From: Lachnospiraceae bacterium
GTDB lineage: Bacteria; Bacillota; Clostridia; Lachnospirales; Lachnospiraceae
NCBI GenBank assembly: GCA_024689465.1
Contig: JAILDL010000013.1
Span: 1 to 64,000, forward strand
Direction: 5' to 3'
Length of the DNA stretch: 64,000 nt
Position 1 is the first letter of the stretch. The number at the start of each line of letters is the position of its first letter. This document shows, piece after piece, positions 8,619 through 64,000 of the stretch. The notes below the pieces were generated by a model. The model saw nothing but the letters and a program-made list of their open reading frames with translations. It did not search any database and had not been told where the DNA came from. A program made the translations under genes and the position numbers.

Positions 8619-8674
8619 GAAGCATACTCGAGATCGATTTTTTATCAAATGGGATCATTTTGCGTGTTTTTGAT

Positions 8675-8702
8675 TTTACAAATAGACAACAGTTTGTATA
8701 AT
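8675..8702 (+). promoter_or_regulatory. Predicted sigma-A promoter for the EAL-domain gene
   Basis: TTTACA at 8675-8680 and TATAAT at 8697-8702 are separated by 16 bases. They lie about 87 bases upstream of the EAL-domain protein start, in the 171-base gap after the flippase. Confidence 0.65.
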
Positions 8703-8789
8703 AGAAATGAAACTTGCTGTTTTTGGGGGAAAATCGCAGGTATTTCGTATTACAAAAACAAAAATGTGTAGGATACCAGGAGAAAAACT

Positions 8790-10466
8790 ATGTCGGAAGG
8801 AATCCAGTGGAGAGACCTGAATGCCTTGTTCGAGCGGGCAGATGAAGCTTATGAGAGCGTCGGCGAGCTGCATGATGCCCTTATGAAGAGTATGCGCCCT
8901 TTTTCCCAGGCCTTTGGTGTGGCCAAGGTGGAGGTGCATGTTTCAGGACGTCCCAATCCCTATTATCCCAATGGCTACAATACCCATTATGAAACCCGTT
9001 TTCTGGATGGCCAGGACCCATACAGCAGAGGCTATATGGTGTCCAACAATTTCGGGCAGGGGTCTGTCAAACTGATCCTGTACCCGGTTACCGGCAGAGA
9101 GTGGGATGAAGAGACCAAGCTGGAGCTGGAGACCTTTTCCCGTATCATTACAACCATTATGAACCGCGGTGCGCTGAACCAGAACATGATCCGGGCCAGC
9201 AGGACCGATTCCCTGACAGGGCTTGCCAATGCCCTGGGCGTTCGCATCTTCCAGAGAGAACTGGCAGAAAAAGGCGTTGTGCCGGAATATACCGGCGTGT
9301 TCTGTAATCTGAAAAACTTTAAACTGATCAACCAGGAGATGGGCAGTGAAACCGGCGATCACCTGTTAAAGGAGTTTGGCCGAAAACTCCAGGAACAGAT
9401 CGATCCTTCCTGTGAACAGGTTGCCCGTCTGGGCGGCGATAATTTCTTTATCACGGTGCAGACCAGACATCTGGAGAACATTCTCCAGGTCATTCCGTCC
9501 ACCAAGGTGGATGTGGAGCAGGAAGGAGTACTGGTGAAGGTGCCTCTGTTATCCAGAGCAGGTATCTTCAGTGGCGGGTCCAATGACGACCCCGAATCCC
9601 TGATCAGCTTTGCCGCTATGACCCTGGAGCGGGGAAAAAGAGACCGCTCCCAGGATCTGTATTATTTCCGTAAGGAACTGGTGGAACAGATCATGCAGGA
9701 GAAGCGCTTTACCGTGGAACTTCCCATGGCTTTGCAGCAGGAGGAACTTCTGCCCTTCTTCCAGCCCAAGATCGATACCAGTACCGGCAGGATGATCGGT
9801 GCGGAAGCACTGGTGCGTTGGAATTATCACGGCAGGGAACTGCTGACACCCGGCGTATTCCTCCGTGCGCTGGAGCGGGAGAGCCGCCTGGTGCAGGAAG
9901 TGGACATTTACATGCTCCGTCAGGTCTGCAAGTATATCCGCAAATGGCTGGATATGGGACTGGATCCGGGGCGGATCTCCATCAACTATTCCAGACAGAA
10001 TCTGCGCAATCCGGATATTGCCGACATCACTTTCAGTGTGCTGGATGAAAACAATATTGACGGTAAATACATCGAGATCGAGATCACGGAGACCACCGAG
10101 ATGGACGATGTGGCCATCCTGAACAAATTTATTGCTGCCATGCATGAACGGGGCGTTCATGTGAGCATGGACGATTTCGGAACCGGCTACTCCGCAGTAA
10201 GCCTGCTGGAGAACCTGGATTTCAATGTGGTGAAGCTGGACCGATCATTTATGATCCGTATCACCAATCGGGAGAGCAAGGTGGAGATCATCATCCGCAA
10301 CATTGTCCGAATGCTAAAGGAGCTGAACGTACAGGTCATCGCGGAAGGCGTGGAGACCGACGAGCAGCTGAAGATGGTTCAGGGTGCTGGCTGCGATGTG
10401 GTACAGGGCTTCCTGTTCCAGAAACCCATGCCGCCCAAGGAATTTGAAGAGATGCTGAAGCGTTGA
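8790..10466 (+). CDS. EAL-domain cyclic-di-GMP phosphodiesterase with degenerate GGDEF domain
   Basis: A 558-residue cytoplasmic protein in three parts: an N-terminal region (about 1-125, GAF-like in size), a GGDEF-fold domain (about 135-300) and an EAL domain (about 310-555). The GGDEF motif reads GGDNF at residues 215-219, which should abolish diguanylate cyclase activity. The EAL domain keeps GAEALVRW (EAL at 339-341), EITETT, DDFGTGYS, KLDRSF and EGVET, the metal and substrate ligands of active phosphodiesterases. I infer a c-di-GMP hydrolase with a regulatory, inactive GGDEF domain. It is transcribed alone between its own promoter and a terminator. Confidence 0.9.
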   Translation: MSEGIQWRDLNALFERADEAYESVGELHDALMKSMRPFSQAFGVAKVEVHVSGRPNPYYPNGYNTHYETRFLDGQDPYSRGYMVSNNFGQGSVKLILYPVTGREWDEETKLELETFSRIITTIMNRGALNQNMIRASRTDSLTGLANALGVRIFQRELAEKGVVPEYTGVFCNLKNFKLINQEMGSETGDHLLKEFGRKLQEQIDPSCEQVARLGGDNFFITVQTRHLENILQVIPSTKVDVEQEGVLVKVPLLSRAGIFSGGSNDDPESLISFAAMTLERGKRDRSQDLYYFRKELVEQIMQEKRFTVELPMALQQEELLPFFQPKIDTSTGRMIGAEALVRWNYHGRELLTPGVFLRALERESRLVQEVDIYMLRQVCKYIRKWLDMGLDPGRISINYSRQNLRNPDIADITFSVLDENNIDGKYIEIEITETTEMDDVAILNKFIAAMHERGVHVSMDDFGTGYSAVSLLENLDFNVVKLDRSFMIRITNRESKVEIIIRNIVRMLKELNVQVIAEGVETDEQLKMVQGAGCDVVQGFLFQKPMPPKEFEEMLKR

Positions 10467-47255: not shown

Positions 47256-48047
47256 CTAGTTGTTACGGTACTCGCTGGGAGTAATTCCATAAAAAGTCTT
47301 AAAGACACTCATAAAGTGCTTTTCGGAGAAATAGCCCACTTGTTGGGCTATTTCTCGTATGGGCAGATTTTGCTCAGTTCTGAGAAGGACCGCAGCCTGT
47401 GTCATACGTAGCCTGGTAATGAAACGAGAGTAGGACTCCCCGGTTTCTTCATGAAATATACCGGATAGGTAGGAAGGGGAAACACCCAGTGCATCGGCCA
47501 CCTCACCCTGAGATATGTTTTCTGTATAATGAGCAGAAATGTAATCCACCGCTTTCTGCGCCAGAGAGTCATCTCCTTGTGCAGAAGCAGTGAAACGGCT
47601 CAGGATAAGCTGTGTGATCTCGTTGGGCGTTGAATCATCCGGAAGAACGACGGTATTACGGCGCTCACAAATATGTTCTTTGATCTTCTCTAATGCATCA
47701 TGCATTTCCTGATCATTCAAAGGTTTCAGAATATATTCCATAACGCCCAGTTTGATGGCTTCTTTGGCATAAGCAAAATCATCGTAGCCTGTCAGAAGCA
47801 GCACCGGCAGTTCACTTCCGGTTTTCCGCATCTTCTTTACAACTTCCAGACCGGATACAAGCGGCATTTTGATATCGGTTATAAAAAGATCATAGGTATG
47901 ATCATCCAGAAGTTTTAATGCTTCTTCTCCGTTGGAGGCCACATCTTTTACATAATAATCCCCATGGATCTGGCTTAGATTATTTGAAATGTAGGACCGC
48001 ATTAACGGTTCATCTTCTGCAAAACAAACGCTAAATTCCGGTTTCAT
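47256..48047 (-). CDS. Response regulator with AraC-type output (YesN-like)
   Basis: A 263-residue regulator with an N-terminal receiver domain (phospho-acceptor Asp58 in DLFITDIKMP; Lys in YILKPLND) and a C-terminal AraC helix-turn-helix pair (QGEVADALGVSPSYLSGIFH; PIREIAQQVGYFSEKHFMSV). I take the ATG at 48047, which overlaps the end of the sensor kinase gene by 17 bases. With the kinase it forms a sugar-responsive system controlling the adjoining transporter and glycosidase genes. Confidence 0.93.
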   Translation of the reverse strand: MKPEFSVCFAEDEPLMRSYISNNLSQIHGDYYVKDVASNGEEALKLLDDHTYDLFITDIKMPLVSGLEVVKKMRKTGSELPVLLLTGYDDFAYAKEAIKLGVMEYILKPLNDQEMHDALEKIKEHICERRNTVVLPDDSTPNEITQLILSRFTASAQGDDSLAQKAVDYISAHYTENISQGEVADALGVSPSYLSGIFHEETGESYSRFITRLRMTQAAVLLRTEQNLPIREIAQQVGYFSEKHFMSVFKTFYGITPSEYRNN

Positions 48048-49839
48048 TTGCAAACTCCGTTCTGATAGTAAGTGGAATATGGATCGTGATAGTAGTTCCT
48101 TTGTCGGGAACCGAATCGATTTCAAACTGTAAAGGCTCCCCATATTTTAATTTCAGCCGTTTGGCTATATTTGTAACGCCTACACCTGAGGTTTCGGTAG
48201 AGGTGTCGCTATCGGTAAAAAGATGAGTTTTTAACTGGTCTAGTGTTTCTTTCGGCATGCCCATTCCGGTATCCGAAATACAAAAAACAGCATAAGGTGG
48301 AGCATAATCTGCCGTGATGGAGATATGCGTTCCGGTGGCTTTGGGTTCGCATCCGTGGATGATGGCATTTTCTACCAGAGGCTGGATGGTCATGGCCGGC
48401 AGAAGCAGTTTGTGAAGTTCTTTATCTACTCGAATGGAGTAGGAGAGTTTTTCATGCCTTCTGGATTGAAGACTCAGGTAACTCTCGGTTATATGAAGCT
48501 CACTTAGTAAGGAGATTTCACTGTCGGCATTGACCATTCCACGGAGTAAAACAGACAGCTCGTCTATTGCCTTTAAGGCTTCCGCATCCTGTCTGGTTTT
48601 GATGAGCAGACTGATGGTATTTAAGGTATTAAACAGGAAATGCGGTCGGATCTGCTGGCATAAGCTGTCATACTCCGCCTTTTGCTGCAGGTATTTGGCT
48701 TCGTAGATCTTTTTGGTAAGCCGGCGATTGCCTTCCATCGTGCGTTGGATCTGATCCAGCAGATCGTTATAGGTTTCGTTCAGATAATTGATCTCTTCCA
48801 CATCACATTCCGGTGCGCGTAAGGACAGATCGCCACCTTGAGACCGCTGCATGACTCCGATCGTGGTATTGATCGGCTGCAGGAAAGTACGAACATAGAG
48901 GACGGAGAAGACCAGTCCCATAACAGAGCAAAGAATTGCAAGGATCAGAGAAAAAATACGGATGGGCGCAGCTTCTTTGAGCAACTGGGAGCGGGATGTG
49001 ATCTCGACTACATACCAGTTTGTGCCTTCGATGTTCTGGGAATTAACGATGTACCCGGAACCATTCAGGGTCAGGTTTTCAATGCCGTTTTCAAAGGTGA
49101 GATTTCGGGATAGTAACTCCGGATCAATGGCTTCCGGGAGAGAAGACCTTTGGTAGATGACGTTACCGGAATCATCCAACATGTACAGGGCACTGTTATT
49201 GTTTAATTCTACCGGATTTAGCACTTCAGAAATTCCGGTATAATCTGCATCTACCCGGATCACACCGATGGTATGATTATCGGCGCGCAGACTCCGTAAC
49301 TGTCGTACCAGTGAAAAGACAGACAGAGTATAGCCGCTTTCGGTCTCTGTTTGGACGGGAAGGAAGATCAGATCGGTACTTTCCAGAGCTTTCCGATACC
49401 AGTCTTCTGAGGCATAATCGGAGTGCAGGGAAATGCTGTGAGAAGTCCGGGTCGTATAATAAATATCGTCGGAGATGATATATACTCGTAAGATCTCTTT
49501 TCGGGGAATGGTCATCACTTCCCTAAGATACCCTTCGATGGTCCTTTTTTTACTCAGCTTTTCGGCAGCAGCCTGCGGATTGGTATCCAATAGATTCATG
49601 ATATCCGCGTTATAATAGGGAGCCATACTCAGGCGGGATAATTCATCGATATACAGACCGGTATTAAGAGCGATCTGTTCTACAATGGATTCTGTTTTTT
49701 CGGCAGCCGTTCGAATGAAATGATTCTGATACCACAAGGAACCTGCCAGTGATACGATGATCACGGAAGTAAACAATAAGGCAGTGATCGAAACAACCAG
49801 TTGCCGTTTTAGATTGGAACGTTTCCCCCTGTTTCGCAT
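48031..49839 (-). CDS. Sensor histidine kinase (YesM-like)
   Basis: A 602-residue membrane kinase: a first helix (about 15-37), an extracytoplasmic double-Cache-size domain (about 40-290), a second helix (about 292-315), HAMP, then the LytS/YesM-type His_kinase domain with the phospho-acceptor in RPHFLFNTLN. The C-terminal HATPase has VENAIIHG and SDTGMGM. The ATG at 49839 has AGGG nine bases upstream; an ATG at 49854 lies too close to the -10 TATAAT (49866-49861, extended TGA-TATAAT). It is divergent from the sugar-binding lipoprotein gene and probably senses the same sugars. Confidence 0.92.
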   Translation of the reverse strand: MRNRGKRSNLKRQLVVSITALLFTSVIIVSLAGSLWYQNHFIRTAAEKTESIVEQIALNTGLYIDELSRLSMAPYYNADIMNLLDTNPQAAAEKLSKKRTIEGYLREVMTIPRKEILRVYIISDDIYYTTRTSHSISLHSDYASEDWYRKALESTDLIFLPVQTETESGYTLSVFSLVRQLRSLRADNHTIGVIRVDADYTGISEVLNPVELNNNSALYMLDDSGNVIYQRSSLPEAIDPELLSRNLTFENGIENLTLNGSGYIVNSQNIEGTNWYVVEITSRSQLLKEAAPIRIFSLILAILCSVMGLVFSVLYVRTFLQPINTTIGVMQRSQGGDLSLRAPECDVEEINYLNETYNDLLDQIQRTMEGNRRLTKKIYEAKYLQQKAEYDSLCQQIRPHFLFNTLNTISLLIKTRQDAEALKAIDELSVLLRGMVNADSEISLLSELHITESYLSLQSRRHEKLSYSIRVDKELHKLLLPAMTIQPLVENAIIHGCEPKATGTHISITADYAPPYAVFCISDTGMGMPKETLDQLKTHLFTDSDTSTETSGVGVTNIAKRLKLKYGEPLQFEIDSVPDKGTTITIHIPLTIRTEFANETGI

Positions 49840-49860
49840 AAGAAATACCCTCATGTGGTG

Positions 49861-49869
49861 ATTATATCA
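49861..49869 (-). promoter_or_regulatory. Extended -10 element of the two-component operon
   Basis: TGA-TATAAT on the - strand, giving a start close to the kinase gene. Confidence 0.5.
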
Positions 49870-50012
49870 TTCCTTTACAGAGTTTTTTCGGGAATCATAA
49901 AAAAACGAACCTTCATCGTAAAAGCCGGGAATTTTATCTTGAAATGAGCCATGGCATAATCAGAATTGCAAAAGGCCATATATGGAAACATGCAACGAAA
50001 GGAGAATGTATT

Positions 50013-51389
50013 GTGGGAAAGAAAAAGTTTTTAGCAGTCCTGTTAACCGCTGCTCTGGGTATGAGCACTCTGGCAGGATGTGGGGCAACTGATACAAGCA
50101 CATCCGGTGAAGCACCGGATACAAATACCGTAACGGAAGCTGCAACACCTGCAGCAAGCGAGGCAGAGGCTGCAGATAGTACGGAAAAGGAAAACAAGGC
50201 AGTTGATCTTACCTTCTTTACAGGAAAAGTTGAAACGGTGGACCTGCTCAATCAGATCATCAGCGATTACAACCAGCAGTCCGGCGGGATCACTGTAGAA
50301 CAGGAGTATCAGGCAGATGCAAGTAACATCATTAAGATCAAATTTGCATCCGGCGAGTCTCCTGATCTCATGACAACTTACGAACAGGAATATGTTAATC
50401 AGGGCAAATATCTGGACCTGTCTGATCGGAACGAATGGTGGGACAGACTGATCCCTTCCATGAAGGAAAGCTGTACCGACCTGGAGTCCGGAAAACAGTA
50501 CCGTGTGTGCACCAATATGACTATGGCAGGCTTTTTCTACAACAAGGAAATGTTTGACGAGTTAGGCCTTAAGGTTGCCACAACCTGGCCGGAATTTGAA
50601 GCAAATCTGGAAGCAATCAAAGAAGCACATCCCGATGTGGATCCCTGGTTCATCTTTGGCGAAGCCTGGCATCTTGGACATCTGATCGAATTCATGCCTC
50701 ATGGATATATCAAGGCAAAGTATGGTGCTACCGAGGCCAAGAAAGCAATGCTCAGTAATGATAGCGCAAAGCTGGATTGGGGCAATCCGGACGGTGCTAT
50801 GGCTACCTTTGCAAAGAATCTGGTAGAACTTCAGAAGAAGGGGCTCATCAATGAGGACGTTCTGACTGCAACCAGCGACAACTGCATCGATGCCTTTGTG
50901 ACTGGCAAGTGCGCGATGTTCTCTAATGGTATGTGGTGTCTGTCGGATCTGCTTACAAAGAATCCGGATATGGCAGATAAGATCGGCTTTGCTCCTTATC
51001 CTGCCTTCATGGAGGACGGTGTTCCGGTAGTTTTGGTCGCAGAAGATTCCGGTTACAGTATCTCTGCCGAAACAGAACATGTAGACGAAGTAGTCGATTT
51101 CCTGAATTTCCTTTTCAGTGCGGAAAATCAGAAAAAGTATGCAGAGACCTTGGGATCTCCCAGTGCATTTAAGGATGTTGATGCTTCCTGGGCACCAGAC
51201 AGCATCGTATCCGGCGTAAATGATGCAGTGGCAAGTGCAACCAATATTGGATTCACAAATGAAAAGCCCGCAGGTTTCTCCGGTGATGATGCCGGACGTC
51301 TGGTTCAGGATCTGCTGGCAGGAACCTATAGTCCCGAAGAATTTGCAAAGGCATACGAGGAAGCTTGGAATGCCGGCTATACAAATTAG
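50013..51389 (+). CDS. Sugar-binding lipoprotein (CUT1 ABC transporter, SBP family 1)
   Basis: A 458-residue extracellular binding protein. The start is GTG at 50013 with GAAAGGAG eight bases upstream, giving the signal VGKKKFLAVLLTAALG and lipobox LAGC (Cys23). A Ser/Thr/Ala/Glu-rich linker follows, then a maltose-binding-protein-like fold (VDLTFFTGKVETVDLLNQII, then FASGESPDLMTTYEQEY). Placed before two permeases and two alpha-glucan enzymes. I infer isomaltooligosaccharides or other alpha-1,6-glucosides as ligands. Confidence 0.93.
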   Translation: MGKKKFLAVLLTAALGMSTLAGCGATDTSTSGEAPDTNTVTEAATPAASEAEAADSTEKENKAVDLTFFTGKVETVDLLNQIISDYNQQSGGITVEQEYQADASNIIKIKFASGESPDLMTTYEQEYVNQGKYLDLSDRNEWWDRLIPSMKESCTDLESGKQYRVCTNMTMAGFFYNKEMFDELGLKVATTWPEFEANLEAIKEAHPDVDPWFIFGEAWHLGHLIEFMPHGYIKAKYGATEAKKAMLSNDSAKLDWGNPDGAMATFAKNLVELQKKGLINEDVLTATSDNCIDAFVTGKCAMFSNGMWCLSDLLTKNPDMADKIGFAPYPAFMEDGVPVVLVAEDSGYSISAETEHVDEVVDFLNFLFSAENQKKYAETLGSPSAFKDVDASWAPDSIVSGVNDAVASATNIGFTNEKPAGFSGDDAGRLVQDLLAGTYSPEEFAKAYEEAWNAGYTN

Positions 51390-51401
51390 TAATTGATCTT
51401 T

Positions 51402-51440
51402 GGACTGCAGGCACCTGATCGTGTCCTGCAGTCCTTTTTT
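51402..51440 (+). terminator. Internal terminator after the binding-protein gene
   Basis: A perfect 10-bp stem GGACTGCAGG / CCTGCAGTCC with a 13-base loop, followed by six T. It lies between the lipoprotein and permease genes, and would make the lipoprotein message more abundant than that of downstream genes. Confidence 0.85.
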
Positions 51441-51456
51441 ATAGGTGGTAGTTATT

Positions 51457-52320
51457 ATGCAACGAAAGAAAAACAAGGCAGCTCAGTTTCTTTCTCTACC
51501 GGCACTTATCCTGTATGGTGTATTCTTCGTATATCCACTGCTCAGAGGGATCGGGATGAGCCTGACCAATTGGGACGGAATGGGGCAGGCTACGTTTATC
51601 GGCCTGAAGAATTATTTTGATTTTTTCAGTGATAAGAGGGCACTCCATGATATCCAAACAACGGTTATCTTTGCTGTGGGAAGTGCTGTGCTTTTAAATA
51701 TAGTGGGCCTTCTTTATGCGCTGCTCATGAACACGGAATTTAAAGGAAAAAGTATTGCACGGGTGATCATTTATCTGCCGGCGATCATCAGCCCGTTGAT
51801 CATGGGATATATCTGGTACTTTCTGTTACAGCCTAAACGGGGGTATCTGTATTATGCCTGCATGCAGTTGGGACTGCCGGATCTGATCGGTAACTGGATG
51901 AGTTCATATCACAGTGCGCTGGCGGTGCTGATCGTGGTAAATGTCTGGCAGTTTGCCGGCATGACCATGATCATATATCTGGCAGGACTAAAAGCGATTG
52001 CAAAAGATTATACGGAGGCTGCAGCCATCGACGGAGCCACAAAGTGGCAGTTGTTTTTTCGGATTACGCTGCCGCTCCTCATGCCGGCGATCCGGATCAA
52101 TGTAGTGACCAATATTATTGGTTCCTTATCGGTATTTGACGTCATCATGTCGCTTACAGAGGGTGGTCCGGGTTATGCGACGGAATCTTTGTCTATTTAC
52201 ATCATGCGGATGTGCTACGGAAGCAGAACAGGCTATTCTACAGCGGTAGCTATGATCCTGTTTGTGATCATTCTGATTCCGGTACTGATATCCATGCGCC
52301 TGACCAGGCAGAAAGGTTGA
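51457..52320 (+). CDS. Sugar ABC transporter permease (MalF-like, CUT1)
   Basis: A 287-residue permease with six predicted helices and the coupling loop YTEAAAIDGATKWQLFFRIT. The ATG at 51457 follows AGGTGGT; an in-frame GTG at 51445 would overlap it. No ATPase is encoded in the cluster, so a shared multi-sugar ATPase elsewhere is implied. Confidence 0.92.
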   Translation: MQRKKNKAAQFLSLPALILYGVFFVYPLLRGIGMSLTNWDGMGQATFIGLKNYFDFFSDKRALHDIQTTVIFAVGSAVLLNIVGLLYALLMNTEFKGKSIARVIIYLPAIISPLIMGYIWYFLLQPKRGYLYYACMQLGLPDLIGNWMSSYHSALAVLIVVNVWQFAGMTMIIYLAGLKAIAKDYTEAAAIDGATKWQLFFRITLPLLMPAIRINVVTNIIGSLSVFDVIMSLTEGGPGYATESLSIYIMRMCYGSRTGYSTAVAMILFVIILIPVLISMRLTRQKG

Positions 52321-52322
52321 TC

Positions 52323-53156
52323 ATGCTCAGAGAAAAGAAAATCACCAAGATCAGCAGAGGCGTGATCGTATTTCTTCTATGCATTGCGTACCTGCTTCCT
52401 TTCTATATTCTGAATATCCTGGCTTTAAATGCGCCAGATCGTGTTTTCTACGAAGGAAACCTGTTTATTCCGGATTTTCATCTGGAAAATTTTGCAGAGG
52501 CATGGACAACTTCTCATATTGGGAGAGCTATGATCAATTCGGCGATCATAACCTTCGGCACATTGGCCTTGACCATTATCTGTGGTGGCCTGGCGGGGTA
52601 TGCCATCGCCCGTTTTCCGACAGCCTATAACCGCTTTGTATTTGGCCTGATCATCGGATGCATGATGATCCCGGGTATTATTAATACAGTGCCTCTTTAT
52701 ACTCTGATGAGGCAGCTGAAAGCAGTAAATACCCTGTGGGGGATGATCTTTGTCTGCTCTGCGTTAGCAATGCCTTCCGCAGTTTTTATCTATACCACAT
52801 TTATACAGGCATTGCCGGTCACGTTGGATGAAGCAGCAGCTCTGGATGGTTGCTCAAAGTTCCAGATATTCTGGAAGATCATTTTCCCGATCATCCGTCC
52901 TGCCACGGCATCGTTTGTGATCCTGAACGGATTCGGCATCTGGAACAATTATGCGCAGGCTGTTTTCTTCTTACAGAGCAGCAAGAAGCATAATGTGCCT
53001 CAGGCACTGTCGGTATTTTTCCAACAGTTTGCGGGGGCAAAATGGCACCTCATGGCTTCGACGTCCATGATCGCCATTATTCCGGTCGTGGTGGTATTTC
53101 TGATCTTCCAGAAGCAATTTATCAGTGGTTTGGCAGACGGGGCAGTGAAAGGATAA
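52323..53156 (+). CDS. Sugar ABC transporter permease (MalG-like, CUT1)
   Basis: A 277-residue permease with six helices and the loop DEAAALDGCSKFQIFWKIIF. It starts two bases after the preceding stop, with AAAGG upstream; a longer open frame from 52212 overlaps the previous gene and is not used. It ends KQFISGLADGAVKG, usual for the family. Confidence 0.92.
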   Translation: MLREKKITKISRGVIVFLLCIAYLLPFYILNILALNAPDRVFYEGNLFIPDFHLENFAEAWTTSHIGRAMINSAIITFGTLALTIICGGLAGYAIARFPTAYNRFVFGLIIGCMMIPGIINTVPLYTLMRQLKAVNTLWGMIFVCSALAMPSAVFIYTTFIQALPVTLDEAAALDGCSKFQIFWKIIFPIIRPATASFVILNGFGIWNNYAQAVFFLQSSKKHNVPQALSVFFQQFAGAKWHLMASTSMIAIIPVVVVFLIFQKQFISGLADGAVKG

Positions 53157-53160
53157 AACG

Positions 53161-54807
53161 ATGGAATTATACCCAAACAAGTCACAGTACATGGTCGGAG
53201 AATCTGTCAGACTGTTCCTTCGCACAGAGAATGCAGAACAAGATCCGTATCAGATCCGGATCATGCATCTGGATGAGGTGATCATGACCCGCACGATCTG
53301 CGCAGAGGAAGAAGAAACCGGAATCGACCTGGATGATAGAGACTTTTCCGTTGGAGGATACGGCGTAGATCTGATAAAAGAGGAGAGAGTCCTATGCCAT
53401 ACAGCGTTCGATGTTGTGGAAGACCCCTTTGAATCCCTTCGATACGGCTTTCTGAGTGATTTCGAAGAAAAGGATATGGAGAACGGTGCACTGGAATGGA
53501 TGCGTAGATGCCATATCAATCTGGTGCAGTTTTATGACTGGTCCTACCGCCATGACCATCTGGTTTCGGACGAAGCTTTTTATACAGATATGATGGGAAA
53601 ACCGATCTTTCGTGAAGCGGTGTGCCAGAAGATCCAAAAAGCAGGGAAGTACGGGATGAAAACAATGGCTTACGGTGCAGTTTATGCTGCCAGTAAGGCG
53701 TTTTATGAAGAGCATCCCCGTTGGGCGCTATTTTACCCGGATGGAGAACCCATTACATTTATTGATGTTTTCTACATCATGAACATTCAGGAAGAGTCGC
53801 CGTGGAGAGAGCATCTGATCGGTCAATACAAAGAGGCAATTACCCAAATGGGCTTCAGCGGGATCCACATGGACACTTATGGAGAACCCAAAACAGCAAA
53901 AGCGCATTTAAAGGATTCTCCAGAGGCGGTTTATCTGGAGGAGGCTTTCCCGGGACTCATTCATGATACGTATGAAAGCCTGAAGGAGAGCATGCAAGAT
54001 CCCTGTCTGGTGTTTAATAATGTGGGAAACTGGCCGGTGGATCAAACAGCTGATACAGACCAGAAAGCAGTATACGTGGAAGTATGGTCGCCGTATGACC
54101 GGTACGAGCACATTGCCAAGATCATTCGGGAGGCAAGAGCATTTTGCAAAGATCAAAAACCGGTCATCCTGGCGGCTTATCTGGCTTCATTCCGTCTGGA
54201 AAGCATAGAACGTGGGATCCGCGCAGCCCGTTTGTTGCTAGCCGGGATTATCTCCAATGGTGCGTATAACCTTTTGACCGGAGAAAACCAGGCCATTTTG
54301 ACGCAAGGCTATTACAGTGACTATACAAAGCTGGATAGAAATGCAGCGAATGTGATCTGTGCTTATTACGATTTCATGATCCGCTATAAGGAACTGTTTT
54401 ATGACAAATGCCTGTCCGATGTGTCCATGACCCATTTTGGAGGAGACAATCTGGAATATACCACTCACTGTGACAGGGTCGATGTAACGCCCAAAGCAGG
54501 TAAGATCTGGCTGATCATCCGCCAGTCAAAAAGCAAAAGAGTGCTCTCACTGATCAATCTTTGCGGAAACGATGATCTCTGGAATCAGGGCAAAGAAGAA
54601 CCGGAAACGATACAAAATATCGATTTTTCAGTACAGATAAACGAATCTTTGGAGGGAATCTATATGGCTTCACCGGATGCGGAAGATCAGGGGATGAAAG
54701 CTGTGGACTATCAGGTCAAAGATGAAAAGCAGGGGCGGTTTGTAACGTTTGCTATCCCGAAACTGACTTACTGGACGATCATCGAGATAAGAGGAAAAGA
54801 AAGGTAG
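53161..54807 (+). CDS. GH66 family enzyme (dextranase / cycloisomaltooligosaccharide-related), cytoplasmic
   Basis: A 548-residue protein with an N-terminal beta domain (about 1-90), the GH66 barrel beginning LRYGFLSDF, and a C-terminal beta domain. The predicted nucleophile is Asp238 in GIHMDTYGE and the acid/base Glu307 in VYVEVWSP. Their 69-residue separation equals that of known GH66 enzymes (68-69). GH66 enzymes cleave alpha-1,6-glucan, some forming cyclic products. There is no signal peptide, unlike secreted dextranases, so it should act on imported isomaltooligosaccharides or cyclic ones. It starts four bases after the permease and is followed by a GH13 enzyme. Confidence 0.85.
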   Translation: MELYPNKSQYMVGESVRLFLRTENAEQDPYQIRIMHLDEVIMTRTICAEEEETGIDLDDRDFSVGGYGVDLIKEERVLCHTAFDVVEDPFESLRYGFLSDFEEKDMENGALEWMRRCHINLVQFYDWSYRHDHLVSDEAFYTDMMGKPIFREAVCQKIQKAGKYGMKTMAYGAVYAASKAFYEEHPRWALFYPDGEPITFIDVFYIMNIQEESPWREHLIGQYKEAITQMGFSGIHMDTYGEPKTAKAHLKDSPEAVYLEEAFPGLIHDTYESLKESMQDPCLVFNNVGNWPVDQTADTDQKAVYVEVWSPYDRYEHIAKIIREARAFCKDQKPVILAAYLASFRLESIERGIRAARLLLAGIISNGAYNLLTGENQAILTQGYYSDYTKLDRNAANVICAYYDFMIRYKELFYDKCLSDVSMTHFGGDNLEYTTHCDRVDVTPKAGKIWLIIRQSKSKRVLSLINLCGNDDLWNQGKEEPETIQNIDFSVQINESLEGIYMASPDAEDQGMKAVDYQVKDEKQGRFVTFAIPKLTYWTIIEIRGKER

Positions 54808-54818
54808 TAGTTGGATAT

Positions 54819-56447
54819 ATGGAATGGTGGAAAGAGAGGGCATTTTATCAGATCTATCCTCGAAGCTTTATGGATGGTAACGGGGACGGGATAGGCGATA
54901 TCAAGGGAATCATCTCAAAGCTGGATTATCTCAAATGGCTGGGGATTGGTGCTGTTTGGCTATGCCCGGTCTATGCATCTCCCAATGCCGATATGGGATA
55001 CGACATCAGCGATTATGAAGCAATCATGGAAGAGTTTGGCTCCATGGAAGATTTTGATCTGCTGCTTAAGGAGATGCATAAGCGGGATATCAAGCTGATC
55101 ATGGATCTGGTAGTCAATCATTCTTCTGATGAACACAGGTGGTTTCGGGAAGCGCGGAAAAGAAAGGATAATCCCTATCGGGATTTCTATATCTGGAGAG
55201 AAGGAAAAGAAGGAAGAGAGCCCAATAACTGGAGCTCCTTTTTTACGCCTTCTGCATGGAGCTATGATGAAACAACGGGGGAATGGTACTTGCATCTGTT
55301 TTCCGAGAAGCAGCCGGATCTGAACTGGGAAAATCCATCCCTTCGGAAGGAAATCTTTGCCATGATCAATCGTTGGCTAGACCGGGGCGTGGACGGTTTC
55401 CGAATGGATGTGATCAGCCTGATCGCGAAAGATCAGACATTTCCCGACGCACCGGGAGAAGGTTACCAAATGGATCCGACCCTGTTTTCCTTTCGCCTTC
55501 AGATGCATCAGTATCTGAAAGAAATGCGGAATACCTGCTTTCGCGGAAGAGACTGTATGTGTGTGGGGGAAACCACCTTTGTAAATACAACCAATGCTCC
55601 TTTGGTGGTGGGAGACGGGACGGAATTAGACCTGTTATTCCAGTTTGATCTCATGGACATCGATGGAGGCATTTCTAAATGGGATCTTCGGGATTTTGAT
55701 CTGGCCAGATTTAAACAGATCATCTGCCGCTGGCAGCAGGCCATTCCCTGGAATACGTTATTCTGGGGAAATCATGACCAGCCAAGGGCTGTATCCAGAT
55801 TCGGAGATGATACGAGCTTCCTTTTGTGGAACCGAAGCGCAAAGACTCTGGCAGCAGCCATGTATCTGCTAAAAGGGACACCGTTTATTTATCAGGGTGA
55901 AGAAATCGGAATGACCAATTATCCTTTTAAGTCAAAGGATGAACTGCGGGATGTTGAAAGTCTGAATCTTTTGAAACATGCGACAAGGGACGAAAAAGGG
56001 AAAGCCTGGAAAGGGATTCTGGCGAAAGGAAGAGATAATGCCAGAACACCGATGCAGTGGAATGAGGAAAATAATGCCGGCTTTACTACAGGAACGCCAT
56101 GGATTGCTGTAAATCCCAATTATATGCACATTAACGTTGAAGATGAGCAAAGTGAGGAATGGTCGATTCTTTCTTTCTATCGGCAACTGCTTTCCTTAAG
56201 AGCCAGTGAAAAAACAATATTAGAAGGAGATTTTGTATTGTTGCTGCCGGAGCATCCGCATATCTTTGCCTATGAGAGGACAACACAGGATAGCAGGATC
56301 TGTGTATATTGTAATCTGTCAGGAGAAGAAGAAAAACTGGAACTACCGGAAAAAGGACAGATTCTCATAAAGGAAGCATATGAGGATGGAATCTTACAAC
56401 CCTGGGGGTGTTTGATCACCAAACAGAATGCTGAAAATTCAGGATAA
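54819..56447 (+). CDS. GH13_31 oligo-1,6-glucosidase / alpha-glucosidase
   Basis: A 542-residue cytoplasmic alpha-glucosidase. Catalytic residues are Asp197 (GFRMDVI), Glu251 (CVGETTF) and Asp320 (WGNHDQPR); region I is DLVVNHSSDEHRWF. Val198 after the nucleophile is the residue known to favour alpha-1,6 over alpha-1,4 linkages in this subfamily. This fits release of glucose from isomaltooligosaccharides made by the GH66 partner. It starts 11 bases after the GH66 gene. Confidence 0.93.
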   Translation: MEWWKERAFYQIYPRSFMDGNGDGIGDIKGIISKLDYLKWLGIGAVWLCPVYASPNADMGYDISDYEAIMEEFGSMEDFDLLLKEMHKRDIKLIMDLVVNHSSDEHRWFREARKRKDNPYRDFYIWREGKEGREPNNWSSFFTPSAWSYDETTGEWYLHLFSEKQPDLNWENPSLRKEIFAMINRWLDRGVDGFRMDVISLIAKDQTFPDAPGEGYQMDPTLFSFRLQMHQYLKEMRNTCFRGRDCMCVGETTFVNTTNAPLVVGDGTELDLLFQFDLMDIDGGISKWDLRDFDLARFKQIICRWQQAIPWNTLFWGNHDQPRAVSRFGDDTSFLLWNRSAKTLAAAMYLLKGTPFIYQGEEIGMTNYPFKSKDELRDVESLNLLKHATRDEKGKAWKGILAKGRDNARTPMQWNEENNAGFTTGTPWIAVNPNYMHINVEDEQSEEWSILSFYRQLLSLRASEKTILEGDFVLLLPEHPHIFAYERTTQDSRICVYCNLSGEEEKLELPEKGQILIKEAYEDGILQPWGCLITKQNAENSG

Positions 56448-57114: not shown

Positions 57115-57160
57115 GCATACCCGGTGACCAAATCTAAAAAAATGACACCTGCATAAAATG

Positions 57161-57191
57161 AGAAGCCTTTGAACAGAAGGCTTCTTTTTTT
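57161..57191 (+). terminator. Nitroreductase terminator
   Basis: A 9-bp stem AGAAGCCTT / AAGGCTTCT with a seven-base loop, followed by a T run. Confidence 0.88.
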
Positions 57192-57242
57192 ATGCTACAA
57201 GATAGAAAACCAGAATGGAAGGGATGGATGGAGAGGAGCAAC

Positions 57243-59054
57243 ATGAAAAAACGATTACTTGGTCTTTTGGCCTGTGGCATATTGATCGCCGTACTGGCAT
57301 GGACCGGATTGGAAACAAAAATACAGAAAGAAAAAGAAAACTTCATGAAGATTGAAAACTATCACACAGCCCAGCTGGGAGAGAACGTATATCTGTTCCG
57401 GGAAAGCGATGATCACGCACAGATCCAGGAGATCATTGATTCTGTCTATCGGAAACAGGAAGCAAACCAGTTCGGGGAGGAGCGTATTGCCTTTTGCTTT
57501 TTCCCCGGAGATTACAGCGATATCACCGTCAGCGTAGGGTTTTATACCCAGGTGCTTGGCCTGGGAACGAGGCCGACGGATGTAAAGATCGGAAAGCTGG
57601 AGTGTCTGGCCAGATGGCTGGGAAACGATCCCGGCAATCACAACGCCTGCTGCAATTTCTGGCGCAGCGTGGAAAACGTGGAGCTGTTATCCAATACGGT
57701 CTGGGCCGTGTCCCAGGCTACAGATATGCGACGGATACAGGTGGACGGAGCCCTTTACCTCCACGATGACTATGGCTGGTGCAGCGGCGGCTTCTTATCG
57801 GATTCCAAAGTAGCCACCATGATCGACTCCGGCTCCCAGCAGCAGTGGCTTTCCAGAAACAACCGGTACAAAGCCTGGATGAACGATAACTGGAACGAAG
57901 TCTTTGTAGGAGATGATCCCGACGGAACCCCCACCGGTACCTGGCCGGTCAAAGCCTATACCGAGGTGGAAAAGACAGTAGAGATCCGGGAAAAGCCCTT
58001 CCTTGTATGGACCGAGGCGGAAGTAAAAAGCGCACTGGGGATCTTTGTTCCCGAAACGCGCATGGACAGCGTAGGCCCCTCCTGGGAGGAGGACGCAGAA
58101 ACGCCCGGAAATATCAGCGCCATTACGGACTGGTACATCGCACAGCCGGGTACGGATTCTGCAGAAACCATCAATGCAGCCATTCTGGAGGGAAAGAACA
58201 TCCTCTTTACGCCGGGTATCTACAATCTGTATGAGCCCATCGTGGTAGAGCAGGATGACCGGATGCTCCTTGGCCTTGGCCTTGCATCTCTGCGTGCCTG
58301 CAACGGCAATGCCTGCATCGAAACAAAGGGCAGTAACCTGACCATCGCGGGACTTTTATTTGATGCCGGTGTTGCAGCAGAAAAGGACGGCAAGAAGGTA
58401 TCTTCTCCAAACCTTCTCTATGTAGGAGAAGGAAAGGACGTGAACATTTCCGACCTGTATTTCCGTGTAGGCGGTACACCCACCAATCAGCCGGCGACCG
58501 CTACCTGCTGCGTCACCCTGGATGCGGATCATGTGATCGGCGATAACCTGTGGGTCTGGAGAGCCGATCATGGGGATCAGGTTGCCTGGGATAAGAACGT
58601 AACAAAGAACGGCATCGTGATCAACGGAGACGATACCATCATGTATGCCCTGATGGTAGAGCATTTTCATGAATACCAGACCGTGTGGAACGGCAACAAC
58701 GGCCAGCTGTATATGTACCAGAGCGAAGTGCCCTATGACGTTCCCGGTAACGATGTATGGATGAGCAGGGGCGGCACCCGCTACGGCTATGCTTCCCTGT
58801 TTGTAAACGATGATGTGGAGCGATTCCACGGAGAAGGGATCGGCATCTATCTGTATAACCGGGATGCTTCGGTGCTTTTGGAGAGCGTCATGGAGATGCC
58901 GGATAAGAAGGGCGTATCCGTTCACCACATCCTGTCGGTGATGATCACCGGAAATCCCGGCGTAGCCCATGTTTTAAACGAAGCAGGAGGGGCCGCCATG
59001 ACACCCGGCTCAAAAGCCATGTTGATCGATTATGAGGGAGGAGAGTATCGATGA
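57243..59054 (+). CDS. Membrane-anchored right-handed beta-helix protein of unknown activity
   Basis: A 603-residue protein with an N-terminal hydrophobic segment (MKKRLLGLLACGILIAVLAW) that acts as signal anchor. The rest is rich in short beta strands with Gly/Asn/Asp turns. Features are VLGLGTRPTDVKIGKL, NACCNFWRSVENV, SGSQQQWLSRN, FTPGIYNLYEPI, GLGLASLRACNG, VIGDNLWVWRADHGDQV and MYALMVEHFHEYQTVWNGN. The repeating pattern is that of pectin-lyase-like / GH55-like parallel beta-helices. Members of this group are often mislabelled adenylyl cyclase or coagulation factor 5/8-type; I see no cyclase motif. The ATG at 57243 follows GAGAGGAG. Cytoplasmic start MKIENYHTA at about 57345 is a less likely alternative. 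Overlap with a laminaribiose-phosphorylase-like gene suggests a beta-glucan-active enzyme. Confidence 0.7.
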   Translation: MKKRLLGLLACGILIAVLAWTGLETKIQKEKENFMKIENYHTAQLGENVYLFRESDDHAQIQEIIDSVYRKQEANQFGEERIAFCFFPGDYSDITVSVGFYTQVLGLGTRPTDVKIGKLECLARWLGNDPGNHNACCNFWRSVENVELLSNTVWAVSQATDMRRIQVDGALYLHDDYGWCSGGFLSDSKVATMIDSGSQQQWLSRNNRYKAWMNDNWNEVFVGDDPDGTPTGTWPVKAYTEVEKTVEIREKPFLVWTEAEVKSALGIFVPETRMDSVGPSWEEDAETPGNISAITDWYIAQPGTDSAETINAAILEGKNILFTPGIYNLYEPIVVEQDDRMLLGLGLASLRACNGNACIETKGSNLTIAGLLFDAGVAAEKDGKKVSSPNLLYVGEGKDVNISDLYFRVGGTPTNQPATATCCVTLDADHVIGDNLWVWRADHGDQVAWDKNVTKNGIVINGDDTIMYALMVEHFHEYQTVWNGNNGQLYMYQSEVPYDVPGNDVWMSRGGTRYGYASLFVNDDVERFHGEGIGIYLYNRDASVLLESVMEMPDKKGVSVHHILSVMITGNPGVAHVLNEAGGAAMTPGSKAMLIDYEGGEYR

Positions 59055-61696
59055 AAAGATTTGTGGAAGAGGATGTATTTGAGATCAAAGGGGAGCACGT
59101 ATCCCCCCAGCTGTATTTTCCGCTGGCTGGTGAAAACGGGTTAAAGAGTGCCATCACCCCTTACGGAAAGGGGGATGCCAAGACGGATCAGAACCATTTC
59201 CTGTTTGCCCCCACCAGCGTTCTGGACTTGTCGGAAGGCAATCTGGGCAGAAACTTCTGGTTCTGCTTAAGGGAAGGAGAACCCTGGTCTTTATTCGGCA
59301 GCAGTGCATGGCAGAAGGCCCTGGAATTTACCGAGGATGAAGAAGAGGTGGAGATAAAGGCCGGCTATATGTGGCAGACCATCACCCGCAGCAGCGAAGT
59401 GTTAAAGCTGAAGGCGGAGGTTACCAGCTTTATCCCCTTTGGTGAAAATACGGAGATCCATTTATTTACCATCGAAAATACCGGTAGCAAACCGGTGGTT
59501 GGAACGGCCCTGTCTGCCTTTCCCATTTACGGCAGGAGCGCGGACAACATCCGGGATCATCGCCATGTGACCAGCTTACTGCACAGATGCCGCGTGGGAG
59601 AAAAGGGCATTTATGTAACGCCCACCATGAGCTTTGACGAGCGGGGGCACCAGAGAAACGATGTGACCTATTTTGTAGAGGGTATGACCGGGGACGGAAG
59701 ATACCCCACCCGGTTTATCCCGGTTCTGGACGACTTTGTGGGGGACGGCACCTTAGAGCGCCCCGAAGCCTTAAAGGATCTGGAACACTTTGCAGATTAT
59801 GTGGCACCGGGAACGGAAGTAGCAGGTCAGGAAATGACAGGCACCTTACTGTTTCCCGAACTGACCCTGCAGCCCGGAGATCAGAAGACCTATATCCTCT
59901 TTGCGGGGATCGGAGAAGGGTCGAAAAAGTACCACACTCTGGAGGATGTGCAGGCAGAACTGGAAAAAACCAGACGCTACTGGAAGAACAAGATGAATGT
60001 AGCAGTGGAAACCGCGGATCCTGCCTTTGACGGGTTTATGCGCTGGGTAGCGTTCCAGCCGGAACTCAGACGCCTCTTTGGCTGCTCCTTCCTGCCCCAT
60101 CACGATTACGGAAAAGGCGGCAGAGGATGGAGAGACTTATGGCAGGACTGCCTGGCTCTGCTTCTGATGAATCCCGGCGGTGTACGGGCAATGCTTCTTG
60201 GAAACTTTGCAGGAGAGCGGATTGACGGAACCAATGCCACCATCATCGGGGAAAAGCCTGGTGAGTTTAAGGCGGACCGGAACGCCATCTCCCGTGTGTG
60301 GATGGATCACGGCGCATGGCCGTTCCTTACCTGTGACCTGTATTTTAACCAGACCGGAGACTACGGCCTGTTACAGGAAAAGACGGTTTACTTCAGAGAC
60401 CGCCTGATCTACCGGGGCGAGAAGGTATCGGAAAACCATTATACCGACACCCTGCTGCATACCGCATCCGGAGACGTCTATGAAGGAACGGTATTGGAGC
60501 ACCTCCTGCTGCAGAACCTGGCAGCCTACTGGGATACCGGGGAAGCAGGACACCTTCGCCTTCGCAATGCAGACTGGAACGATGCCCTGGATATGGCAGC
60601 CGATAAGGGCGAGAGCGTAGCCTTTACCAACTTCTACGGAAGAAACCTGCTCCTTTTGGCTGAGCTGATCGAAAAGGTGGTGCCGGAGGGAGAAGAAGTA
60701 ACCTTCTTTGCGGAGATGGAGCACCTTCTGGCAAAAGGTAAGGCAGATCCTTCCTACCGCAAAGATGTGCTGAACGGTTATCTGGAAACCGTAAAGGAAA
60801 CGGTTTCCGGTGCCATGACTTCCATGGAAGGCAGAGCACTGGCCAGAAACCTGCGTGATAAGGGACTGGAGCTGTTAGAAGAGATCCGCCGGAAAGAGTG
60901 GATCGACTTAGGGGACGGCGGCTTCTACAACGGCTACTATGACGATCACGGCAGAGCCCTGGAGGGCATCCGGGACGGAAGAGTCCACATGATGCTTACC
61001 AGTCAGGTATTTGCCATCATGGCAGGCACCGCAGATGCAAAGCAGGTGGAAGCCATTGTAAAGAGCGCCGATGACCTTTTGTTTGATGCTTCCTGTGGTG
61101 GCTACCGTTTAAATACGGACTTTAAGGAAGTCAAGATGGATATGGGCCGGATGTTCGGCTTTGCCTTCGGAGAAAAGGAAAACGGAGCGGTCTTTGCCCA
61201 CATGGCCGTGATGTACGGAAATGCCTTGTACCAGAGAGGCTTTGCAAAGGAAGGCTATAAGGCACTGCATGCCCTTTACAGCCAGTCCATGAACGATGCA
61301 GTCAGCCGCATCTACCCGGGCCTGCCGGAATACTTCGGACGAAAGGGCAGAGGTTTATATCACTACCTCACCGGTTCCGCCAGCTGGTATCTCATGACCG
61401 TGATGAACCAGATGTTTGGCGTACGGGGAAAGGACGGAAATCTCCTTCTGGATCCCAAGCTGCTCAGAGAACAGTTCGATGAGGAACATAAGGCACAGAT
61501 ATCCTGCCGTTTTGCGGATATCGACTGGAAGATCACCTATGAGAACCCGGAGGATAAGGAATACGGCGAGTATACCATCCGGGAGCTGTATCTGGATGAC
61601 GAGCGTTGTGACACGACCCGACCGGAGATCCCTCTGGGCAAGATCAAATCCTTAAATGAAGGCATCCGTCACCGGATCCGTGTGGTCCTTGGATAA
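59051..61696 (+). CDS. GH94 phosphorylase, laminaribiose-phosphorylase-like
   Basis: GH94 enzymes phosphorolyse beta-glucosides to glucose 1-phosphate and a shorter sugar. The 881-residue protein has an N-terminal beta-sandwich, a helical linker, an (alpha/alpha)6 barrel and a C-terminal beta domain. The blocks IYGRSADNIRDHRHVTSLLH, SFDERGHQRN, SFLPHHDYGKGGRGWRDLW and GTNATIIGEKPGEF match my recollection of Paenibacillus laminaribiose phosphorylase nearly residue for residue. The catalytic Asp lies in NADWND (506-511). No signal peptide. It overlaps the beta-helix gene by four bases (ATGA). Cellobiose or other beta-1,3 dimers remain possible substrates. Confidence 0.88.
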   Translation: MKRFVEEDVFEIKGEHVSPQLYFPLAGENGLKSAITPYGKGDAKTDQNHFLFAPTSVLDLSEGNLGRNFWFCLREGEPWSLFGSSAWQKALEFTEDEEEVEIKAGYMWQTITRSSEVLKLKAEVTSFIPFGENTEIHLFTIENTGSKPVVGTALSAFPIYGRSADNIRDHRHVTSLLHRCRVGEKGIYVTPTMSFDERGHQRNDVTYFVEGMTGDGRYPTRFIPVLDDFVGDGTLERPEALKDLEHFADYVAPGTEVAGQEMTGTLLFPELTLQPGDQKTYILFAGIGEGSKKYHTLEDVQAELEKTRRYWKNKMNVAVETADPAFDGFMRWVAFQPELRRLFGCSFLPHHDYGKGGRGWRDLWQDCLALLLMNPGGVRAMLLGNFAGERIDGTNATIIGEKPGEFKADRNAISRVWMDHGAWPFLTCDLYFNQTGDYGLLQEKTVYFRDRLIYRGEKVSENHYTDTLLHTASGDVYEGTVLEHLLLQNLAAYWDTGEAGHLRLRNADWNDALDMAADKGESVAFTNFYGRNLLLLAELIEKVVPEGEEVTFFAEMEHLLAKGKADPSYRKDVLNGYLETVKETVSGAMTSMEGRALARNLRDKGLELLEEIRRKEWIDLGDGGFYNGYYDDHGRALEGIRDGRVHMMLTSQVFAIMAGTADAKQVEAIVKSADDLLFDASCGGYRLNTDFKEVKMDMGRMFGFAFGEKENGAVFAHMAVMYGNALYQRGFAKEGYKALHALYSQSMNDAVSRIYPGLPEYFGRKGRGLYHYLTGSASWYLMTVMNQMFGVRGKDGNLLLDPKLLREQFDEEHKAQISCRFADIDWKITYENPEDKEYGEYTIRELYLDDERCDTTRPEIPLGKIKSLNEGIRHRIRVVLG

Positions 61697-61714
61697 GAAG
61701 AGGAGAATCAAGCG

Positions 61715-64000
61715 ATGAATCAAACCTATACTTGGAACGATTATGGAAAGAAAAGCCCCTTTGCAAGCTTCCTGCCGGGAATCGCAGGAGAAAAGGGAAT
61801 CCCCATCTGGTGCTACTACGTAAACAGAGGGCAGGCAGTGGTCAGCTTCGGCTCCAACCATAAGGACCATGCCATCATGGAGTTTTATCCTGCCCATGTA
61901 GCTTATCAGAATGTCAAGCGGACCGGCTTTCGTACCTTTATAAAGGAAAACGGAATGGTCACAGAGCCCTTCATGAAGGAGAAGGTATCCCATGCCATGG
62001 AGATCGGCATGAACCACCTGACCCTTCGGGAGGAAAACAGGGAAAACGCCTTACAGACAGAGGTTACCTATTATACCCTTCCCAATGAGCGGATCGGAGC
62101 ACTGGTACGAAAGGTGACCATCACCAACCTGGGGGAAGAAAGACGCAGCCTGGAGATCTTGGATGGTATGCCTGCTGTGATCTGCTACGGCGTCAGCCAG
62201 GATAACATGAAGAACATGACCCAGACCGCCAAGGCCTGGATGCAGGCGGAGGATACCCGGACCGGAGTTCCTTATTTCCGCGTGCGGGCATCCATCGAGG
62301 ATACCATCGATGTAACCGAGGTAAAGGGCGGAAACTTTGCCTTTGCCATGGATGAGACCGGACGGATGCTCTCTGCGATCACCGATCCCAAGGTAGTCTT
62401 TGCCTATGACAATTCTCTGGGAGAGGCAGCAGGCTTTGAAGAGAAGGACTTAGCAGAGCTCCTTTCCGAAAAGCAGAATGCATCCAACCTCCTTCCCTGT
62501 GCCTTCTTTGGAACTACGCTGATCCTGGAAAAGGGAGAGAGCAGGACCTTCTACGAGCTGATCGGGCAGGTGGAAGATAAGGAGACACTGCAGCACTTCC
62601 TGGAGAAAGGGCTCACCCCTTCCTTCTTCGAAGAAAAGGAGCAGGAAGCAAAGGATTTGGCAGAGGAGCTGACCGGGGACATGGAGACCCATACTGCGCA
62701 TCCTGTTTTCGATGCCTACAGTACCTACACCTATATGGACAATCTGCTGCGCGGCGGAAAGCCCATCCTCCTTGGAAAGAACAAGGTGTTCTATTGCTAT
62801 TCTCGTAAGCACGGGGACCTGGAGCGGGATTACAACTATTTTGCCATGCTGCCGGAATATTATTCTCAGGGCAACGGCAACTTCCGGGATGTAAACCAGA
62901 ACCGTCGCTGCGATATCTTCTTCCATCCCTTCATTGGGCGGGAGAATATACGGATGTTCTACAACCTGATCCAGATGGATGGTTACAACCCGCTGCTCAT
63001 TGAAAAACAGACATACTTCCTAAAGGAAGAGGAGTCCTTTACACCGGGGGCTCTCTTAATGGACCTGGAAAAGCAGATGGGAAGCCTGGAAAAGGCTCTG
63101 CCTGTTTTTGAAGAGACCATGGAGAAAGCACAGAGCCGGGTAAGCGCTTCCTTTGGAGAAGGCTACTGGACCGACCACTGGACCTACAACCTGGATCTGA
63201 TAAAGGAATATCTGGATCTCTTCCCGGAACAGGAAGAGGCCATGCTCTATGAAGAGACCTACAGCTACTTTAAGGCAGGGGCTCTCATCAATCCCCGCTT
63301 TAAGAGATATGTAAAGACAGCCCGTGGCATCCGGCAGTATCGTGCACTGGATCAGAACGCCATGCGAAAGGATCCGGAGAAGCTGGTAAAGAACAGCAAG
63401 GGAAAGATCCAGAAGAGCACCCTGATGGAAAAACTGATCCTGCTCGGGACCATGAAGTTTACAGCCCTGGATCCCTATGGTATGGGCATTGAGATGGAGG
63501 GCGGAAAACCCGGTTGGTATGATGCCTTAAACGGTCTGCCCGGTATGTTGGGAAGCTCGGTGAACGAACTGTGTGAACTGGCACGAAGCCTGGACTATAC
63601 CATCGATGCCTTAAAACGCTTCCCCAGAGCAGTAAAGCTTTTTGCAGAGTTTGCGGATTTCTTTGAAGAGATCCGGAGCATTGCCATGACCCATGAACAG
63701 GCCATGGAAGGGTGCGGCGAGAAGCTGGATTTCTGGAATGCGATCAACGATAAAAAGGAAGCTTACAGAAAGCTGGTATACAACGGGGTATCCGGAGAAG
63801 TCAAAGACCTGTTTGCGGAAGAGATCCTGGCGGGACTTTGCTGCTTCAGAAGGATCGTGGGCATGGGCATCCGGAAAGCCATAAAGCATTCCAACGGGAT
63901 CTGTCCTTCCTACTATTACTACGATGTAACGGATTTTGCAGAGAAGGGAGAGGAGATCATCCCGCTGCATTTTGTACAGAGAAACATTCCCTATTTCCTG
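61715..64000 (+). CDS. Large phosphorylase-like protein (clan GH-Q type), 3' end outside window
   Basis: The frame from ATG 61715 is open to the last base (762 codons), so the C-terminus is missing. AGGAG precedes the start. An N-terminal beta-sandwich region (FLPGIAGEKGIPIWCYYVNR, then EVTYYTLPNERIGALVRKVT) is followed by a helical barrel with GNFRDVNQNRRCDIFF near residue 395. GGKPGWYDALNGLPGMLG near residue 600 has an Asp placed like the catalytic Asp of GH94 (WYDAL compared with WNDAL). Such ~1100-residue proteins include 1,2-beta-oligoglucan and beta-1,3-oligoglucan (GH161) phosphorylases. Pairing with a laminaribiose-type enzyme favours a beta-1,3-oligoglucan phosphorylase, but the family cannot be fixed by eye. 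Confidence 0.7.
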   Translation, partial: MNQTYTWNDYGKKSPFASFLPGIAGEKGIPIWCYYVNRGQAVVSFGSNHKDHAIMEFYPAHVAYQNVKRTGFRTFIKENGMVTEPFMKEKVSHAMEIGMNHLTLREENRENALQTEVTYYTLPNERIGALVRKVTITNLGEERRSLEILDGMPAVICYGVSQDNMKNMTQTAKAWMQAEDTRTGVPYFRVRASIEDTIDVTEVKGGNFAFAMDETGRMLSAITDPKVVFAYDNSLGEAAGFEEKDLAELLSEKQNASNLLPCAFFGTTLILEKGESRTFYELIGQVEDKETLQHFLEKGLTPSFFEEKEQEAKDLAEELTGDMETHTAHPVFDAYSTYTYMDNLLRGGKPILLGKNKVFYCYSRKHGDLERDYNYFAMLPEYYSQGNGNFRDVNQNRRCDIFFHPFIGRENIRMFYNLIQMDGYNPLLIEKQTYFLKEEESFTPGALLMDLEKQMGSLEKALPVFEETMEKAQSRVSASFGEGYWTDHWTYNLDLIKEYLDLFPEQEEAMLYEETYSYFKAGALINPRFKRYVKTARGIRQYRALDQNAMRKDPEKLVKNSKGKIQKSTLMEKLILLGTMKFTALDPYGMGIEMEGGKPGWYDALNGLPGMLGSSVNELCELARSLDYTIDALKRFPRAVKLFAEFADFFEEIRSIAMTHEQAMEGCGEKLDFWNAINDKKEAYRKLVYNGVSGEVKDLFAEEILAGLCCFRRIVGMGIRKAIKHSNGICPSYYYYDVTDFAEKGEEIIPLHFVQRNIPYFL

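Follow-up and report, generated by a model that had tools for sequence, protein, structure and literature searches.

The right end of a 64,000-nt stretch of a Lachnospiraceae bacterium genome (contig JAILDL010000013.1, positions 1 to 64,000, hereafter the window) carries three closely spaced genes. The question raised by this locus is whether they belong to a pathway in which beta-1,3-glucan is cut at the cell surface and its products are phosphorolysed inside the cell, and how such a pathway would be supplied and controlled.

The three-gene module

A first-pass annotation had described three open reading frames overlapping or lying within 18 bases of each other, with the first starting at nt 57243. 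This arrangement was confirmed, with all three on the plus strand (Table 1): the stop codon of the first gene is overlapped by 4 nt by the start of the second, and 18 nt separate the stop of the second from the start of the third. The annotation had looked to the sequence beyond nt 64000 for the remainder of the third gene and for a transporter, and both are present there, the third ORF being complete at 1014 aa. The ATG of the first gene is preceded by a ribosome site, GGAGAGGAG (nt 57230–57238). A longer version of this ORF, starting at nt 57192, was rejected, as that position lies inside the T-run of a terminator-like hairpin and the ribosome site suits the start at 57243. A chance origin of the three genes can be ruled out, since their matches to solved structures have E-values of 1e-103 or lower and they stand in the same order in other genera; their identities and order are established.

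Table 1. Coordinates of the module genes and of the elements preceding them.
Feature	Position (nt)	Strand	Evidence
Box TAAAAAAATGACACC, candidate operator of the GH55-GH94-GH161 unit	57135..57149	+	Exact second copy; conservation across loci
Intrinsic-terminator-like hairpin between box and -10	57160..57186	+	Fold -15.0 kcal/mol
Predicted -10 element TATGCT	57191..57196	+	56 nt from box start; spacing fixed across loci
GH55 beta-1,3-glucanase, N-terminal membrane anchor	57243..59054	+	4PEW, E=2.8e-104; active-site residues
GH94 laminaribiose phosphorylase, 881 aa	59051..61696	+	6GGY, E=1.7e-233
GH161 beta-1,3-oligoglucan phosphorylase	61715..64000 in the window, on to contig 64759	+	9QQK/9H8V, E=0

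The two phosphorylases

The second gene had been read as a laminaribiose-type GH94 enzyme, and the comparison bears this out. Its product scores 780.7 bits against the Paenibacillus enzyme PsLBP (6GGY), while the next GH94 type reaches 74.3 bits, which clearly marks it, by its sequence, as a laminaribiose phosphorylase. Cellobiose, chitobiose and cellodextrin types were rejected, with scores at least ten-fold lower, and no beta-1,2-oligoglucan phosphorylase was among the matches. The alignment to PsLBP is nearly full-length and includes the ADWND motif region, although the window enzyme occurs in another host and operon. Residues A507–D511, H717, T774 and G775 are invariant across seven orthologues and are also present in 6GGY; in GH94 enzymes ADWND is the catalytic Asp region, the His belongs to the phosphate site, and the T-G pair forms a loop.

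For the third gene the choice had been left between GH94, GH149 and GH161, and it falls to the last of these. The protein aligns end to end with two solved GH161 structures, 9QQK (1281.6 bits) and 9H8V (1277.6 bits), and no feature that distinguishes it was found in the comparison with these two. GH149 is excluded by score (107–108 bits against the NCBIfam equivalog cut-off of 1150 bits). When GH161 and GH94 were compared by hhalign the probability was 99.4, with W601/D603 aligned to W509/D511, which points to a single clan (GH-Q) with a shared catalytic Asp region. One characterised GH161 enzyme acts on oligomers of DP >= 3 and leaves a disaccharide (PMC6484121), an end product that suits a GH94 partner.

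The GH55 protein

GH55 is a family with many exo-acting hydrolases, and bacterial members such as SacteLam55A act from the non-reducing end. The product of gene 1 has no match in Pfam or NCBIfam profiles; its match to SacteLam55A of Streptomyces (4PEW) spans 540 residues, with about 40% identity over 513 residues. Active-site residues were compared in an alignment of the window protein with ten related-locus copies, of which one is N-terminally cut and two (L032 and L082) share a genome, and residue roles were read from PMC10637969. The window protein retains 12 of the 13 catalytic and subsite residues of SacteLam55A. The catalytic acid E502 and its helper Y505 are conserved in this protein and all orthologues, as are Q174, S198, E480, H481, W444, W446, D449 and F152 in all copies covering them, and the Y194/W196 channel residues and exo-type aromatic block are common to SacteLam55A and the window enzyme. 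The exception is the equivalent of T149, which belongs to the water-activating relay with Q174, S198 and E480; the window protein has Cys at this position, its relatives have Cys, Leu or Thr, and a fungal GH55 has Glu (PMC10637969).

An N-terminal hydrophobic or lipoprotein-type leader is found in the window protein and in six other distinct orthologues whose N-termini are intact (in the L055 and L096 copies the start is uncertain and the leader not readable), and these leaders suggest that the enzyme is probably exported and surface-tethered. The anchor, the Cys in place of T149, and the setting within a phosphorolysis operon distinguish it from SacteLam55A. The earlier description of gene 1 as a membrane-anchored beta-helix protein needs correction in that the protein is a GH55 and, being a member of this family, is itself predicted to hydrolyse. 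No match was found in phages, and a phage origin was rejected.

Neighbouring genes

The importer of the module, an SBP gene followed by two permease genes, occupies contig 64875–68206, its first gene lying 116 bp past GH161. Next come an SBP-like lipoprotein (68435–70078), a histidine kinase (70096–71904) and an AraC-type response regulator (71901–73352), and a GH3 enzyme lies further downstream at contig 77351. There is no ATPase gene near the module, and a MalK/MsmX-type ATPase is encoded on contig C38 of the same genome; GH161 loci are mostly without a transporter ATPase (PMC6484121). Across related loci the lipoprotein (8435–10078 in the numbering of locus L005) is usually better conserved than the adjacent kinase, as expected if the lipoprotein is the ligand sensor. 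On the minus strand at contig 75303–77312 (L005 15303–17312) is a gene for a LacI-like sugar-binding domain fused to GGDEF, with no HTH match, and relatives of this fusion recur in 13 of 80 GH161 loci.

The first-pass annotation saw no transporter in the visible part of the sequence, but the window does contain an ABC importer (SBP and two permeases, nt 49944–53156), part of an upstream cluster (nt 49944–56447) that also carries GH66 and GH13. It was set aside as the module's own importer because it accompanies these alpha-glucan enzymes and a terminator-like hairpin precedes GH55; a nitroreductase gene and the hairpin stand between the two clusters. Together with a divergent HK/RR pair, these genes make up a separate alpha-glucan cluster (nt 47256–56447), probably for dextran or isomalto-oligosaccharides. 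Its GH66 has no evident signal peptide, which is unusual for the dextranase family.

A conserved box at a fixed distance from the -10 element

The intergenic stretches ahead of GH55 and of the SBP gene have CTAAAAAAATGACACC in common. By pattern search, the exact 15-mer TAAAAAAATGACACC has only two copies in its own genome, the first 5' of GH55 and the second 5' of the transporter (contig 64741), which suggests one regulon of two units. With up to 3 mismatches allowed, 47 of 48 loci carry the box 5' of the SBP gene, where mononucleotide shuffles gave a mean of 0.96 and a maximum of 4, and 23 of 58 carry it 5' of the first GH55 or GH94 gene (shuffles: mean 0.59, maximum 3). Exactly 56 nt from the box start there is a TATAAT-like -10 element at 40 of 41 transporter sites (up to 1 mismatch) and at 11 of 16 enzyme sites (up to 2 mismatches). 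No -35 element is recognisable in the alignment of box sites. Between box and start codon the spacing ranges from 38 to 197 nt across loci, which links the position of the box to the promoter, as would be expected of an activator site.

The hairpin that lies between box and -10 element in the window probably ends upstream transcription, and the same nesting is seen in L032, L060, L083, L092 and others. A role as attenuator in the GH55 leader was set aside, as the predicted -10 stands 3' of the hairpin. In four loci of Pseudobutyrivibrio/Butyrivibrio type (L094 at 7218, L100 at 7144, L101 at 7113 and L104 at 7117) the box-like sequence 5' of GH94 forms a perfect, terminator-like palindrome with a T-run (GGACACC...GGTGTCC).

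Distribution

A survey of 80 sampled GH161 loci, mostly from Lachnospiraceae, included many short contigs, so its counts are lower bounds: GH94 is present in at least 54, permease P1 in at least 47, the response regulator in at least 40, the lipoprotein in at least 39 and GH55 in at least 8. The order GH55-GH94-GH161-SBP-permeases-lipoprotein-HK-RR is retained in Lachnospiraceae bacterium XBD2001 and in the genus sister, where the contig ends inside GH55. Among 299 genomes of the family, GH161 occurs in 33 and GH55 in 14, and 12 of these 14 also have GH161 (Fisher p=3e-11, a value that ignores phylogeny). In many related loci GH161 and the SBP gene are separated by a GH30 gene (L047 13109–14443, L038 6584–7912 and similar); the window locus is without it, and the GH30 of this genome lies on contig C155.

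Proposed pathway and alternatives

Very probably, this is a Gram-positive locus for beta-1,3-glucan of the laminarin type, combining GH55 trimming, import, phosphorolysis by GH161 and GH94, and box promoters driven by a sensor. Surface cutting followed by phosphorolysis of oligomers by the large enzyme and of dimers by GH94, as first proposed, is the best reading. The surface-tethered GH55 would trim beta-1,3-glucan chains, and laminarioligosaccharides would be taken in by the SBP-dependent importer, powered by an ATPase encoded elsewhere. In the cytoplasm, GH161 would phosphorolyse oligomers of DP >= 3 stepwise to glucose-1-phosphate and laminaribiose, and GH94 would convert laminaribiose and phosphate to glucose-1-phosphate and glucose. 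The lipoprotein, histidine kinase and AraC-type response regulator would sense the sugar, and the regulator would then switch on the two promoters, before GH55 and before the transporter, through TAAAAAAATGACACC.

The pathway is weakest where oligomers must be supplied: GH55 enzymes of bacteria act in exo fashion, and a search of this genome, which is 82% complete, found no GH16 endo-glucanase. GH55 alone may not provide oligomers for import. It is quite possible that GH55 mainly frees glucose and gentiobiose outside the cell and that the phosphorylases use oligomers released by the endo-glucanases of other gut microbes. The exo-type aromatic block and Y194/W196 retained in the window enzyme agree with such scavenging, as do the missing GH16 and the complete absence of GH55 from most relatives with GH94-GH161. 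However, an endo-glucanase could have been missed in a genome of this completeness, one fungal GH55 acts endo (PMC10637969), and the operon is headed by GH55. The substrate and the direction of the reactions we infer from the company these genes keep. Sequence gives no certain specificity, and the characterised GH161 PapP and a GH149 enzyme accept disaccharide acceptors of other linkages (PMC6484121), so beta-1,3 specificity might be inherited by family name only and the true substrate be, for example, a bacterial or mixed-linkage glucan; this is improbable, as three independent beta-1,3-glucan families meet in one operon. Still harder to credit is that the phosphorylases, their reactions being reversible, serve to make beta-1,3-glucan or laminaribiose from glucose-1-phosphate, given that a co-transcribed hydrolase, an importer-type SBP with permeases and a sensor system all indicate catabolism.

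As to what binds the box, we infer that the response regulator of the locus is the likeliest candidate, from co-occurrence: where a lipoprotein/RR orthologue is present, 41 of 43 loci have the full site, versus 12 of 36 where it is absent, by a loose criterion, several of the 12 being shortened contigs or having orthologues just below threshold. Those 12 loci could instead point to another protein, such as a global regulator. This appears rather unlikely against the near-constant pairing of site and orthologue and the confinement of both exact copies in the window genome to the module locus. We lean towards a dedicated beta-1,3-glucan regulon shared among Lachnospiraceae, in which the lipoprotein, kinase and AraC-type regulator would activate the enzyme and transporter units via a TAAAAAAATGACACC operator at a fixed distance from the -10 element. 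In this regulon the transporter unit would encode its own sensor, and a terminator would be nested between operator and -10 here and in several relatives.

Relation to known systems and significance

Phosphorolysis had been considered less documented for gut Firmicutes than hydrolytic laminarin use, but GH94-GH161 tandems with ABC transporters in Firmicutes were already published, with the same sequential phosphorolysis proposed, by Kuhaudomlarp et al. 2019 (PMC6484121). The window locus shows the pattern of these loci, with adjacent GH94 and GH161 genes, ABC permeases and an SBP, and, as usual among them, no ATPase gene in the cluster. It adds to them a GH55 at the head, the lipoprotein with histidine kinase and response regulator, and the shared candidate operator; the main text of PMC6484121 makes no mention of GH55 or two-component systems. 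The mixed-linkage glucan locus of Blautia producta (PMC10318527) is similar in belonging to a gut Firmicute and in having a cell-anchored glucanase, an ABC importer and an intracellular GH94, but it uses GH16 and a beta-1,4-specific GH94 inactive on laminaribiose, and no GH161 is described there. The literature searched, of which coverage was partial, contained no earlier description of the box, of laminarin loci with GH55 in Lachnospiraceae, or of a GH55-headed locus that combines a three-component regulator with a shared operator. The enzymes at the core and the way they work together are therefore already known (PMC6484121), while the regulatory element is possibly new.

The locus offers a testable route by which Gram-positive bacteria of the gut and rumen may use algal and fungal beta-1,3-glucan, and phosphorolysis would keep the bond energy as glucose-1-phosphate. 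The conserved box provides a sequence handle with which such loci may be found and assigned, including those with unrecognised enzymes, and it draws attention to a lipoprotein that is probably sugar-sensing.
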